Under the pieces are notes generated by a model that saw nothing but the letters and a program-made list of their open reading frames with translations, was not told where the DNA came from and did no database searches. Shown here in pieces: positions 7,281-29,808 of a stretch of 39,595 nt of DNA. The stretch covers positions 1-39,595 of IMG/VR virus record IMGVR_UViG_3300003885_000015; one strand, written 5' to 3'. Origin of the DNA: a virus. Each line of letters begins with the position of its first letter. Within the stretch, counting starts at the first letter, position 1. The translations under genes were made by a program, and so were the position numbers.

Positions 7281-7883
7281 ATGATCGAAGTTTTAGACCA
7301 CGGGCATGTGGGTTTCATTGAGTCTTTCGGCGACGACTCAACAGTTTTACAAATTGCAAAAAATATTATTGGTAAGGGTGATGATCTCAATGATCAAAAG
7401 TGTATTGATTTTTTAATTAAAACAGAACGGTCATCACTGCTCAATCCTGTGATGTTCAACTTTGAAATCAAAGCACCTTTATTTGTTCTTGAAAGATGGT
7501 ATGAATATTCTTACAAGAACAAAATGAACGATAAAATAACAGAAGAATTCTATACACCTTCTGAGTTTTCATTTGACGGTTTGATTGATTTATCCAAAGA
7601 CTCAGGAAAAATGAAAATCAGTCAAATAAGAAGTTTGATATTCAGAAGCAATCAAACCTCATACACCCATTACAGTGATTTAATTAATTTTGGTATACCT
7701 AATCACTTAGCTGAAATGATATTACCAAGTTCACACTATAAAACAGTGAATACAATAATATCACTGCCTAAATTGTTAAATTTTAAAGACATTGAAAACT
7801 CACACGAGTGCAGCACTTATAGTGATGCAGTTTGTGAACTGATAAAAGACATCATACCGCTGACTTTAAAATCTATACGTTAA
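7281..7883 (+). CDS. ThyX-like protein with a degenerate signature motif
   Basis: 200 residues. The overall order resembles flavin-dependent thymidylate synthase: an N-terminal strand (VLDHGHVGFIESFGDDSTVLQIAK), LIKTERSSLLNPVMFNFEIKAPLFVLER, then LPSSHYKTVNTIISLPKLLNF and a C-terminal helix. ThyX has RHRxxSxNExSxR after the FEIKAP-type stretch; here the same place reads RWYEYSYKNKMN, losing the second Arg, the His and the Asn-Glu. The late LR...AQ.EIR segment is also altered (ENSHECSTYSDAV). It therefore looks like a diverged ThyX that either changed chemistry (another pyrimidine modification) or became non-catalytic. It sits between the polymerase and a nuclease. The family call rests on pattern and needs a structure-based comparison. 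Confidence 0.55.
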   Translation: MIEVLDHGHVGFIESFGDDSTVLQIAKNIIGKGDDLNDQKCIDFLIKTERSSLLNPVMFNFEIKAPLFVLERWYEYSYKNKMNDKITEEFYTPSEFSFDGLIDLSKDSGKMKISQIRSLIFRSNQTSYTHYSDLINFGIPNHLAEMILPSSHYKTVNTIISLPKLLNFKDIENSHECSTYSDAVCELIKDIIPLTLKSIR

Positions 7884-7963: not shown

Positions 7964-8251
7964 ATGGGAGTAAGAGAAAGGAAAGTCGAACATTATCTAC
8001 GCGACAGGGTGAAAGAAATCGGTGGACTTTCTCGCAAGTGGGGTAAGTCTAACGTAGCTGGTGTACCTGATCAGTTGGTTTTTCTACGTGGCAGCATCTA
8101 CCTAGTTGAAATAAAAACAACCGATGGTGTATTAGAACCAGAACAAAAACGCGAACACGCTCGCATGGCCGATGTACTGATAGAAGTTTACACACTGTAC
8201 GGTCATCGTGATATTGATGAATGGGTAAAGAAAATAAATGAACGAACTTAA
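7964..8251 (+). CDS. VRR-NUC domain nuclease
   Basis: 95 residues from ATG 7964. It matches the small phage VRR-NUC (PD-(D/E)XK) nucleases: REKVExYL-like opening (RERKVEHYLRD), GGLSRKWGKS, GVPDQLVFL with the catalytic Asp, and YLVEIKTTDG with Glu-x-Lys, then the helix EQKREHARM. Stand-alone VRR-NUC proteins act as structure-specific nucleases, often next to helicases, as here: its 3' end overlaps the helicase start by 14 bp. I prefer the 7964 start because AAAAGGA lies 6 nt upstream. An in-frame ATG at 7889 would add 25 residues, mostly hydrophobic (AISVLVTIMFYFLV), making a membrane-anchored form. That start lacks a clear SD but lies only 5 nt after the previous gene. Confidence 0.88.
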   Translation: MGVRERKVEHYLRDRVKEIGGLSRKWGKSNVAGVPDQLVFLRGSIYLVEIKTTDGVLEPEQKREHARMADVLIEVYTLYGHRDIDEWVKKINERT

Positions 8252-10676
8252 ACCAAGTGATTTATTTGCTTATCAACGTGAGTCGATCATACACCAACTG
8301 AATCACGTTGATTCGGTACTATGGCTTGGTATGGGGCTTGGTAAAACACCGATTACGTTAACTACTATCGTCGATAGAATGAGAGCTGGTCATGTCAAAA
8401 AGGTATTGATTTTCGGCACACTGAGAATCATTCAAAGTGTGTGGCGTAAAGAGGCTTTGAAATGGACTCACACCAGTCATTTAAAATTCAGCATCATTAA
8501 TGGGACTAAGCAGGCAAGGACTAAATCATTGTTTGAGGAAGCTGATATTTACATGATCAACTACGACAACATGAACTGGTTAGCTGAAACTCTGGATCAT
8601 TATTATTTTTCACAAGATTTAGAAAACCCGTTTCAAATGATTGTCTATGATGAAATTACAAGATTGAAAAAAAGCACCACGTTAAGAATGGCCGGTGGTA
8701 ATCGGGATCGCATAGACAGACGTGGTGAAGTGCATAAGATTAAAGTCACTGGGTGGAACAAGTTCGTTAACTTATTCAAATATCGAGCTGGTCTGACAGG
8801 CACACCAGCATCGAATGGTTACATTGATCTACATGGTCAGTACTTGGTGATTGACGGTGGTGAACGCCTTGGTAAATTTATCACGACTTACAGACAGGAG
8901 TATTTCACTAAAAGTTATGACGGTTGGGGCTACACACCAACACAACTTGGTAAAGCCGCTATTGTAAGTAAGATATCAGACATTACGCTCAAAATGGATA
9001 GTAAAGATTATCTTGATTTACCAGCCGTCAAAGTTACAAACCATTTAGTCGACCTGCCTAAAAATGTGTGGAAATCTTATAAAGAATTAGAAAAAACTTT
9101 GTTCACTCAACTGGAGTCAGGTGTTGATATTGAGCTGTCAAATAAAACCAGTTTATCAAATAAAATATTACAGTTTTGTAATGGCAGTCCTTACATTAAC
9201 CCAATGGAACCTGAGTTCGATGTTATGCACGATGCCAAACTGGATGAGTTAATGAACATCGTTACTGAGGCTGCTGGTTCACCTGTGTTATGCAGTTATT
9301 CGTTTAAAGCAGATGCACAGCGAATCATGAAAAAAATGAAAAAATTTAAACCGGTGAACTTAACTGAAAGTCCGTCAAGGCTCACAGGTAGCATCATCGA
9401 CAAATGGAACAAAGGTGAAATAAAATTATTAATAGGTCATCCTGCATGCTTGCACCCTGACACCCTGCTATTGACCGAACGGCGTGGGTGGATTAAACTC
9501 ATTGACATCAGTGTAACTGAAAAAGTATTTGACGGTGTTGATTTTGTATCTCACGGTGGTTGTTTGTATTCAGGCTATAAAGAAGTAAATAATCTTTTTG
9601 GTGTAACTATGACACACAACCATAGATTACTAATATCAGGTAAATGGGTGGAATCATGTAATGTTGAAAATTGTGAAAATATTAAAAAAGAAGCATTATA
9701 CAAATACAAAGGCAATGACAAATACCTTAGCAAAATGTTTACATTGCGGGGCAATATCAGAAATCCTCAAACAGAATGTAACAAAACACAACCGTTTAAA
9801 AAGAGAATATTGTCAACACTGTATCAGAGAAAATTATCACAACATGACAAACACTCGAATATGGAGAATATGGCAAGGAATGATTCGTCGTTCAAAAAAC
9901 CCATTAGACAAAAATTATGCAGGTCGTGGGATAAGCGTGTGCGAAAGCTGGTTGGATTTCAAAACGTTTTACACCGATATGCACAAAACATACAGAAGCA
10001 ATTTGACTATCGAAAGAATAGATGTGAACAAGGGTTATTCAAAAGAAAACTGTACGTGGGTCACAATGCTTATGCAACAGTCGAACAAAAGAACAACACG
10101 ATTTTTAATCTACAAAGGTTCAAAAATACATCTAGCAGGGTTATGCCGTTTAACAGGGTTGAGCAAAACGAAATTAAAAATGAGATTAGACCGGGGGATG
10201 ACAGCGGATCAAGCGGTGACAGACGCAATGAACTCACCTTACGGAAAAAGTACGAACCCGAAAAACAAGGCAAAAAGAGAGTTAAGAAAAACCATGTCTA
10301 TGACTTAGTTGATTGTGGTCCACGTCACCGATTCTTAATCAAAAATGCAAAAGGTGAAGTGTTCACATCACATAACTCAATGGGCCATGGGATTGATGGT
10401 CTACAGTACTCAGGCAGTATTGTTGTTTGGTTTGGTTTGAACTGGTCACTTGAGTTGTACGAACAAATGAACGGACGCATCAATCGACTTGGGCAAACCA
10501 AACCTGTATCAATCATTCGTATACTTTGCAGAGACACAATTGACCTTATTGTTGCAATCAGACTTGACGGCAAGTACAACACTCAAGAAGGTTTAAAAGC
10601 AGAAGTTGACAAGTATAGAGGCGTTCAACCAGTTCAATCATTTTTAACAGCTCAGCCAGTTGTTAGTTTTTTATAA
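8238..10676 (+). CDS. SNF2-type phage helicase interrupted by an intein
   Basis: 812 residues; about 502 after intein removal. Helicase motifs: I GMGLGKT (31-37), II YDEITRLK (D138/E139), III LTGTP (186-190), and VI GRINRLGQ (746-753). Motif V reads HPA...SMGHGIDGLQ across the insertion: residues 404-713 are an intein placed exactly inside the conserved HPAS-GHG motif, a catalytic-site position typical of inteins. Superfamily 2 SNF2-like helicases with this ending (WFGLNWSLELYEQ) are common in phage replication operons beside VRR-NUC. The C-terminus reads QPVQSFLTAQPVVSFL, two copies of the short motif also seen in the primase linker. The start overlaps the nuclease gene. Splicing itself is inferred from intact junction residues. 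Confidence 0.9.
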   Translation: MNELKPSDLFAYQRESIIHQLNHVDSVLWLGMGLGKTPITLTTIVDRMRAGHVKKVLIFGTLRIIQSVWRKEALKWTHTSHLKFSIINGTKQARTKSLFEEADIYMINYDNMNWLAETLDHYYFSQDLENPFQMIVYDEITRLKKSTTLRMAGGNRDRIDRRGEVHKIKVTGWNKFVNLFKYRAGLTGTPASNGYIDLHGQYLVIDGGERLGKFITTYRQEYFTKSYDGWGYTPTQLGKAAIVSKISDITLKMDSKDYLDLPAVKVTNHLVDLPKNVWKSYKELEKTLFTQLESGVDIELSNKTSLSNKILQFCNGSPYINPMEPEFDVMHDAKLDELMNIVTEAAGSPVLCSYSFKADAQRIMKKMKKFKPVNLTESPSRLTGSIIDKWNKGEIKLLIGHPACLHPDTLLLTERRGWIKLIDISVTEKVFDGVDFVSHGGCLYSGYKEVNNLFGVTMTHNHRLLISGKWVESCNVENCENIKKEALYKYKGNDKYLSKMFTLRGNIRNPQTECNKTQPFKKRILSTLYQRKLSQHDKHSNMENMARNDSSFKKPIRQKLCRSWDKRVRKLVGFQNVLHRYAQNIQKQFDYRKNRCEQGLFKRKLYVGHNAYATVEQKNNTIFNLQRFKNTSSRVMPFNRVEQNEIKNEIRPGDDSGSSGDRRNELTLRKKYEPEKQGKKRVKKNHVYDLVDCGPRHRFLIKNAKGEVFTSHNSMGHGIDGLQYSGSIVVWFGLNWSLELYEQMNGRINRLGQTKPVSIIRILCRDTIDLIVAIRLDGKYNTQEGLKAEVDKYRGVQPVQSFLTAQPVVSFL
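9447..10376 (+). other. Intein coding segment within the helicase gene
   Basis: 310 codons. Block A starts at Cys1 (CLHPDTLLLTERRGW) and block B is GVTMTHNHRLLI with the Thr-x-x-His. Block F is HVYDLVDCGPRHRFLIK, and block G ends TSHN followed by Ser as the first C-extein residue. Cys1, the penultimate His, the terminal Asn and the Ser+1 are all present, so class 1 splicing looks possible. The roughly 200 codons between B and F are open in this frame but read as a Lys/Arg-rich sequence with no endonuclease motif. The endonuclease is instead encoded in the +1 frame over the same DNA. Removing 9447-10376 joins HPA to SMGHG in frame. Confidence 0.9.
9715..10308 (+). CDS. HNH-type homing endonuclease encoded out of frame inside the intein
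   Basis: 197 residues from ATG 9715, with AAAGG just upstream. An in-frame ATG at 9661 would give 215 residues but has a weaker SD. The frame is +1 to the helicase/intein frame. It starts with a two-CxxC zinc region (CLHC, CQHC). The family core follows: IWRIWQGMIRRSKNP, NYAGRGISVCESW, LTIERIDVNKGY, ENCTWVT. It ends with a DNA-binding tail (LAGLCRLTGLSKTKLKMRLDRGM) like the helix-turn-helix tails of phage HNH homing enzymes. Role: cut intein-less helicase alleles to spread the intein. Because it is not fused to the intein it would have to be made as a separate protein from an internal start. Its recognisable motifs all lie in this frame, and none in the helicase frame. Confidence 0.85.
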   Translation: MTNTLAKCLHCGAISEILKQNVTKHNRLKREYCQHCIRENYHNMTNTRIWRIWQGMIRRSKNPLDKNYAGRGISVCESWLDFKTFYTDMHKTYRSNLTIERIDVNKGYSKENCTWVTMLMQQSNKRTTRFLIYKGSKIHLAGLCRLTGLSKTKLKMRLDRGMTADQAVTDAMNSPYGKSTNPKNKAKRELRKTMSMT

Positions 10677-10691
10677 AAAGGAATTTGCATC

Positions 10692-10997
10692 ATGTTAGTA
10701 CTAAAAAGGAAAAAAGGTCAACGAATTGTCATGGTCAACAATGGTGCGTTGAGTTACGTAAAACTGCTTAGTTTCAGGGAAGGAGACAGTGCAGTAATCT
10801 CAATTAAGACAAATGGGAATGAAACTTACAAAACGCATCAGGTTAAACTCCGCGAAAATTTATTAATCCACGATAGTATTACCATTTACATTGTCGACAT
10901 ATTTAAGTTTTTTGTAAAAGTCGGCATTGATGCACCGAAGAGTGTCATCGTGGATCGTGAAGAAATACACTTGAAAAAAATAAAAAGTGTTAATTAA
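10692..10997 (+). CDS. CsrA/RsmA-like RNA-binding protein, apparently a two-unit fusion
   Basis: 101 residues, against about 60 for ordinary CsrA. The N-terminus MLVLKRKKGQRIVM matches CsrA strand 1, and the C-terminus VKVGIDAPKSVIVDREEIHL matches strands 3-5, including VxREEI with the RNA-contacting Arg. Between them lies extra sequence that itself resembles CsrA strands 2-3 (LSYVKLLSFREGDSAVISI) and a second strand 1-2 (ENLLIHDSITIYIVDI). So the chain can be read as two CsrA units, the first lacking its end and the second lacking its start. CsrA works as a dimer whose RNA site combines strand 1 of one subunit with strand 5 of the other, so this could fold as a one-chain dimer with one complete site. 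SD AAGGAA lies 7 nt before the ATG. It is the last gene of the replication operon. Confidence 0.7.
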   Translation: MLVLKRKKGQRIVMVNNGALSYVKLLSFREGDSAVISIKTNGNETYKTHQVKLRENLLIHDSITIYIVDIFKFFVKVGIDAPKSVIVDREEIHLKKIKSVN

Positions 10998-28962: not shown

Positions 28963-29808
28963 TTATACTGTTCCGTCGAACTCATCGTCGTCATCAACAG
29001 CATTTACTAGTGCTTTATAAACATCACTACCATGATCAGTAATACCATCAGTACCAACAACGAATAGGTCATCATAACGCCCTTCTAACCGATCCCAGAA
29101 CCTCGCCCACCATGAGAGGTCGTCACCATCCTCGAAAAATTGACCATCATGATCAAAGTACTTAAGCTCACCAACGTGTGAATAACCGAGCATTTGAGGC
29201 GGCATCCTCGTTACCACATCATTGTTGTTGACCATACGGAAACAACGGTCGTGCATCTGATTATTGAATAATCTGCAGAATTGATGATCACCAACACGCG
29301 GTTGACCAAATGTATACACACCTGCAATCGACATCTGTGAAACAGTCAACTCAACCATTGCTGAGAAAACCACAGCCAATGCACCACCAAGGGAATGTCC
29401 GGTGACGTAAATCGGTTGCAAATTGCCCCTAAGCCGGGTTATCTCAGCAAGCACATCAAGGTAAACACTGTTGACTGCTTGCGTGAACCCATGATGCAAT
29501 TTACCGAAACTCTCATTGATATTAGTTTGTATTTGTGTCGTCCAATGTGTTTTAAACATGCCGACATCAGTTGCCCAATCTTTAAGACTGGTTCCCTCAG
29601 TGCCACGAAAACTGACAATGATCTTATCCTTATCACCAGCGACGAAACATTGTGTACCAGTGTGAGTATTTTCAATAAAGTATCGATCTTTCGACGTATC
29701 GAAACCGAATGATTCCAAACCGGTTTTAATTTTGTATTTCGGTTGATAAGACAAGCAAGCCATTTCGACCATGTTTCTCATCATGGCTGTGCTGAATAAT
29801 GAACTCAT
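28963..29808 (-). CDS. Class 3 lipase (alpha/beta hydrolase) embedded in the head module
   Basis: 281 residues. Class 3 lipase pattern: oxyanion-side IIVSFRGTEG (64-72), WATDVG, HHGFTQAV, nucleophile elbow VTGHSLGGALA with Ser139, GVYTFGQPRVGD, Asp197 in NNNDVVTRMPP, and His259 in DHGSDVY. So the Ser-Asp-His triad is complete. Length is normal for the family. No signal peptide or transmembrane segment is seen. It hydrolyses acyl esters; natural substrates could be host membrane lipids. The gene sits in the leftward virion block between a small coupled gene (ATGA overlap) and the portal, so it is expressed with late genes. A role in lysis or in virion entry is inference; no endolysin was found elsewhere in the window. 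Confidence 0.88.
   Translation of the reverse strand: MSSLFSTAMMRNMVEMACLSYQPKYKIKTGLESFGFDTSKDRYFIENTHTGTQCFVAGDKDKIIVSFRGTEGTSLKDWATDVGMFKTHWTTQIQTNINESFGKLHHGFTQAVNSVYLDVLAEITRLRGNLQPIYVTGHSLGGALAVVFSAMVELTVSQMSIAGVYTFGQPRVGDHQFCRLFNNQMHDRCFRMVNNNDVVTRMPPQMLGYSHVGELKYFDHDGQFFEDGDDLSWWARFWDRLEGRYDDLFVVGTDGITDHGSDVYKALVNAVDDDDEFDGTV

Follow-up and report, generated by a model that had tools for sequence, protein, structure and literature searches.

A putative single-chain, two-unit CsrA-like protein with one predicted RNA site in a phage genome

CsrA regulates translation globally in bacteria, and its dimer with two sites is thought to be central to its action. The RNA surfaces of the dimer are formed by parallel strands 1 and 5 from opposing chains, with L4 and R44 as critical residues; full repression of glgC needs both sites of one CsrA dimer, one-site dimers made with R44A cannot bridge, and some CsrA targets have a single site (PMC7652899). 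The order of strands in each sheet is 5A-2B-3B-4B-1A in RsmA and 5A-2A-3B-4B-1B in RsmN (PMC3791407). Copies of csrA on plasmids and phages have been surveyed (PMC7366521), and a term search of that survey found no fused or tandem form. One plasmid copy, RsmQ, alters host behaviour (PMC9928087). We found the tandem one-site layout undescribed in the open-access literature, where no account of a tandem, two-domain or monomeric CsrA was found, although a description elsewhere is possible.

In this work, we analysed a virus record of 39,595 bases (the window) and found a protein that is probably a single-chain CsrA pseudo-dimer with one predicted RNA site, which is the best explanation of our data. 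Like canonical CsrA, RsmA and RsmE (PF02599; 1vpz, 2bti, 2jpp), it keeps L4 and R44 and the predicted strand order, and its second unit overlays a whole CsrA chain; unlike them, with their two identical chains and two RNA sites, it is one chain of about 1.6 units with one expected site. RsmN/RsmF of Pseudomonas aeruginosa (4kji, 4krw, 4k59) is also a longer CsrA relative with extra residues past strand 2, and strand 1 and strands 3-4 are expected on one sheet in both cases. However, the insertion in RsmN is a single helix, and two chains are still required for its two sites, whereas the extra residues of the window protein correspond to CsrA strands 3 and 4 followed by a second 1 and 2. The engineered R44A one-site dimers (Mercante 2009, as described in PMC7652899) share with it one working site on a dimer-like body, but they are two-chain laboratory constructs, while the window protein is natural and single-chain, with its second site deleted and not mutated. 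RsmQ (PMC9928087) and the surveyed copies (PMC7366521) are likewise CsrA relatives on mobile elements; RsmQ differs in forming a homodimer, and heterodimers with host Rsm proteins, in two-hybrid tests (PMC9928087).

The csrA-like gene and its profile match

The gene and its immediate surroundings are as follows.

8238-10676, plus strand: SNF2-type helicase gene with an intein-like insert, directly upstream of csrA
10675-10682, plus strand: ribosome-binding site AAAAAGGA, at the helicase stop codon (10674-10676), read from the sequence
10692-10997, plus strand: csrA-like coding sequence for a single-chain tandem CsrA-like protein of 101 aa (Pfam, AlphaFold2)

The open reading frame starts 15 nt past the helicase stop codon, is preceded by an AAAGGA ribosome-binding site and encodes the protein MLVLKRKKGQRIVMVNNGALSYVKLLSFREGDSAVISIKTNGNETYKTHQVKLRENLLIHDSITIYIVDIFKFFVKVGIDAPKSVIVDREEIHLKKIKSVN. 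The Pfam CsrA profile (PF02599) matches it with an E value of 1.9e-13 and 50.6 bits, above the curated cut-off of 27, so that membership in the CsrA superfamily is real, while the NCBIfam equivalog cut-offs are missed (NF002469, 43.1 against 73 bits; TIGR00202, 36.9 against 70.1). The match is split in two, with residues 1-14 on profile positions 1-14 and residues 52-95 on positions 7-50. Because the second stretch has no gaps, residues 46-51 take the position of CsrA strand 1 for a second time, and residues 46-58 fall on strands 1-2 as a second, degenerate copy.

A match in which Pfam alone detects only the ends (1-14 and 52-95) may also be read as a single normal CsrA unit whose strands 2 and 3 are separated by an unrelated beta insertion, and which would form an RsmN-like dimer with two RNA sites. 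Consistent with such an insertion, the middle of the window protein, taken by itself, does not score against the CsrA profile (-0.5 bits), and the two-unit statement for this sequence therefore rests on its family and on the predicted fold.

Relatives and the two-unit architecture

Besides the window protein, we found 15 distinct proteins with the tandem layout, in Pseudomonas phage vsMR, Xanthomonas and Stenotrophomonas plasmids, IMG/VR phages and a few bacterial contigs. Searches by tblastn recovered the layout in vsMR and on Xanthomonas and Stenotrophomonas plasmids, where the proteins carry the annotation "carbon storage regulator". In single-sequence searches vsMR was the only clear full-length phage relative, and a scan with vsMR as query found no relatives; an alignment-based scan added one locus (L020). 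A DNA spacing pattern (M-L-x-L-x-R ... A-P ... R-E-E) returned four viral loci, then five genome loci and then four further viral loci. One of the genome loci (L032) was false by frame, leaving 12 further true loci (eight viral and four genome) under strict patterns, and the same pattern with longer spacing gave none. The tandem layout is thus rare, and there is some redundancy among its members: L028 and L031 are identical as far as the shorter one reaches, and L034 and L035 are 96% identical. A scan with an alignment of L034, L035 and L037 recovered those three, and the other loci that were read or scored were ordinary CsrA.

The relatives are informative about the middle of the protein. In L034, L035 and L037, unit 1 lies on CsrA profile positions 1-37/38 and unit 2 on positions 1/2-57, so that their extra residues are, by sequence, plainly CsrA strands 3-4 and, after these, another strand 1. 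Two clear CsrA domains were also found in L027, L030, L033 and L036, and weaker ones in the remaining members. Moreover, a family profile of unit 1 from which strands 1-2 had been removed matched ordinary CsrA in hhalign with a probability of 96% and a score of 38-39, in register with CsrA strands 3-4. The scores of 100 column shuffles per alignment did not exceed 16.9, that of the reversed profile was about 8, and the result was unchanged when L034, L036 and L037 were left out.

Genes next to the relatives encode, among others, a phage primase (L027), an integrase (L037) and DNA methyltransferases (vsMR, L020), while the neighbours tested in L029, L030 and L033 did not look phage-like, except for a helicase in L029. 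On a Xanthomonas citri plasmid (L021, 2501-3134), an ordinary csrA lies directly behind the long tandem one. A tree of unit 2 (50 columns) places the window protein on a long branch, indicating divergence, and does not decide between one and several origins of the layout (a single clade is not rejected, p-AU 0.62).

The fold of one chain of the window protein was predicted with AlphaFold2 from an alignment of 13 sequences (pLDDT 90.6, pTM 0.78). Nine strands and a helix were obtained, in the order of strands 1-4, then strands 1-5 and the helix. The strands of unit 1 span residues 2-6, 11-16, 19-28 and 33-40, and those of unit 2 residues 47-53, 56-58, 64-70, 75-80 and 86-89, followed by the helix at 90-100. 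The prediction for L037 (pLDDT 83.9) has an identical layout and behaves in superposition like the window protein. Of the ten strands in a CsrA dimer, the single chain thus holds nine; unit 1 lacks its strand 5 and its helix. Its parts are as follows.

10692-10826, plus strand: unit 1, residues 1-45, CsrA strands 1-4 without strand 5 or helix (fold, profile, Pfam stretch 1-14)
10695-10709, plus strand: unit 1 strand 1 (LVLKR), whose L4 and R6 contribute one half of the RNA site predicted as intact
10812-10829, plus strand: linker NGNETY, from unit 1 strand 4 to unit 2 strand 1 (predicted fold)
10827-10994, plus strand: unit 2, residues 46-101, complete CsrA with strands 1-5 and C-terminal helix (Pfam, fold, superposition)
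10830-10850, plus strand: unit 2 strand 1 (KTHQVKL), eroded, with H at the L4 position and V at the R6 position
10932-10964, plus strand: A81-P82, V85, V87 and R89-E90-E91 of unit 2, which contribute the second half of the RNA site predicted as intact

Superpositions of the model argue against an inserted domain. With VIA-align, residues 44-100 fall on the entire 1vpz chain at 1.0 A over 57 residues, residues 45-101 fall on 2bti at 0.9 A, and unit 2 superposes end to end on 1vpz, 2bti, 5z38 and 2jpp at 0.9-1.4 A. The RsmN chain also superposes over model residues 1-93 (52 residues, 1.7 A, 33% identity), which would favor an insertion at the place where RsmN/RsmF have their helix. However, an alignment over 1-93 would also be expected of a chain in which strand 1 of unit 1 lies on the sheet of unit 2, since strand 1 is unswapped in RsmN, and the helix between strands 2 and 3 was not predicted in the window protein, where AlphaFold2 placed strands 19-28 and 33-40 instead. 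Considering also the match of the family profile to strands 3-4, far beyond shuffles, and the two obvious units of L034 and L037, we regard one CsrA unit with an insertion as very unlikely.

The first-pass annotation had proposed a two-unit, single-chain CsrA-like protein, to be examined by structure prediction and by a profile search of each half, and had named an unrelated domain inserted at residues 18-62 as the outcome that would speak against it. No such domain was found, and the two domains scored in relatives and the compact nine-stranded chain, with a whole CsrA chain matched by residues 44-100, bear the proposal out. Its view of the middle as the missing halves of two units holds in that CsrA strands are there and fails in that unit 1, with strands 1-4, is no half unit; similarly, the search by halves succeeded with the family profile of the unit 1 middle and in the relatives, but not with the middle of the window protein alone.

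Foldseek and VIA also returned CcsBA, an S-layer domain and phage baseplate plugs (residues 1-85, Z 5-9, 2.7-3.6 A). As the sequence points to CsrA only, we take these candidates to share a common beta arrangement with the model. Among them, plugs of the Pam3 gp18 type (PDB 7yfz, 9b45) resemble the model with Z of about 5 and 3.3-3.6 A over 80-83 residues, and many unnamed small phage proteins in BFVD resemble it with TM up to 0.80. The likeness to plugs and to BFVD proteins may reflect either a common arrangement or distant kinship.

If units 1 and 2 of the pseudo-dimer are read as two chains, the model would contain the sheets 5(2)-2(1)-3(1)-4(1)-1(2) and 2(2)-3(2)-4(2)-1(1). Here unit 1 strand 4 adjoins unit 2 strand 1, so that a very short join would be possible. 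The protein probably originated by fusion of a CsrA without strand 5 and helix to a complete CsrA; as strand 4 adjoins strand 1 of the other chain in the CsrA dimer, only a short turn would have been needed. It is also conceivable that the chain exchanges strands with another copy of itself or with the CsrA of the host, giving a larger assembly that has at least two sites. Swapping is natural in CsrA (PMC3791407), the plasmid protein RsmQ pairs with RsmA and RsmE of its host in two-hybrid tests (PMC9928087), and the absence of unit 1 strand 5 leaves an open sheet edge. Nevertheless, the lone chain folds confidently in AlphaFold2, which suggests that no partner is needed, and such swapping seems unlikely.

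The RNA site and its possible action

The chain carries two units instead of the canonical one, as judged from homologues, profile and predicted fold, and the same evidence suggests a single RNA site where the canonical homodimer has two. RNA contacts were placed from superposition ranges. Residues A81-P82, V85, V87 and R89 of unit 2 are equivalent to CsrA A36, P37, V40, V42 and R44, and the PF02599 contact residues L4 (unit 1) and R89 (R44) are present. A composite surface of unit 1 strand 1 and unit 2 strand 5 would thus be kept, while the second surface could not form, its strand 5 being absent and its strand 1 eroded.

Across the family, L4 and R6 of unit 1 and R44 of unit 2 occur in 16 of 16 members, although in 10 of the 16 the search pattern imposed L4, R6, A-P and R-E-E, and probably also L4 and R6 in L020, which has A-A in place of A-P. 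The five pattern-independent members (the window protein, vsMR and three plasmid proteins) all keep L4, R6 and R44. By contrast, only 4 of the 16, and none of these five, have a basic residue at the R6 position of unit 2. One full and one degraded site, as anticipated at first pass from the sequence, fit this pattern in the 16 proteins.

A tandem fold that has lost RNA binding and acts as a protein-protein decoy, for instance for a CsrA partner, could explain the divergence of the window protein (its long branch) and the substitutions in its site, K5 for T5, K7 for R7 and D88 for H43. These substitutions may instead mean a shifted RNA specificity. Lost binding should erode the site residues, as happened in the second site, but the window, vsMR and plasmid proteins retain every one of L4, R6, A-P, both valines, R44 and E-E, so that a decoy seems distinctly unlikely.

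Judging from sequence and model, the pseudo-dimer is most likely a monovalent binder of GGA-containing RNA, the natural counterpart of the engineered one-site CsrA dimers. It would bind A(N)GGA RNA at one site per molecule without a partner chain, and might block or alter translation of phage or host mRNAs, or occupy GGA sites against host CsrA, without the two-site bridging used by full CsrA. Given the two-site requirement of glgC and the existence of single-site targets, a one-site protein should act on single-site targets or occupy GGA without bridging. Within its own mRNA, AAGGA occurs both at the ribosome-binding site and at codons 5-7, weakly hinting at autoregulation. Near the gene starts of the phage, ANGGA gave no clear signal, with 11 of 37 genes having it in the Shine-Dalgarno zone, which the motif resembles anyway.

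More tentatively, these proteins might form a monovalent, partner-independent CsrA class of phages and plasmids that acts on GGA sites in host or own mRNAs without bridging, possibly unable to mix with host dimers and thus separate from the host Csr circuit. A natural one-site, one-chain CsrA, if confirmed, would make the need for two sites testable without engineered mixtures, and suggests a way for mobile elements to influence regulation in the host without entering into mixed dimers with its CsrA.

Phage context

The structural genes of the window are of podovirus type, with a head-tail connector, internal virion proteins and tail proteins. The connector and polymerase are 60-66% identical to those of Vibrio phages MZH0603, PS25B.1, 1.185.O and 1.021, which makes a Vibrio-like host likely. 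The rightward replication operon ends with csrA, which faces the leftward late operon. At the helicase junction of MZH0603, PS25B.1 and 1.185.O, no csrA is annotated and opposing genes directly follow the helicase; hence csrA has the look of an accessory gene that was either acquired or lost at this junction.

The upstream helicase gene contains an intein-like insert at 9450-10370 (plus strand; 307 aa, C405 to N711), which splits IGHPA from SMGHG relative to MZH0603. Similar inserts occur in DNA polymerase genes of APSE phages, with about 24% identity over 98% of the insert, and in APSE-1 two annotated genes, P45 and P46, likewise cover the matching region. Within the insert, in another frame, is an HNH endonuclease open reading frame (9661-10308, plus strand; 215 aa; phrog_3377, E 2.6e-42), and the frame of the insert itself is open throughout. 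A ThyX-like thymidylate synthase (7281-7883, plus strand; PF02511, E 1.6e-8) lies between the polymerase and nuclease genes, and an esterase/lipase family match (28963-29808, minus strand; phrog_21992, E 3.3e-20) lies amid the structural genes.
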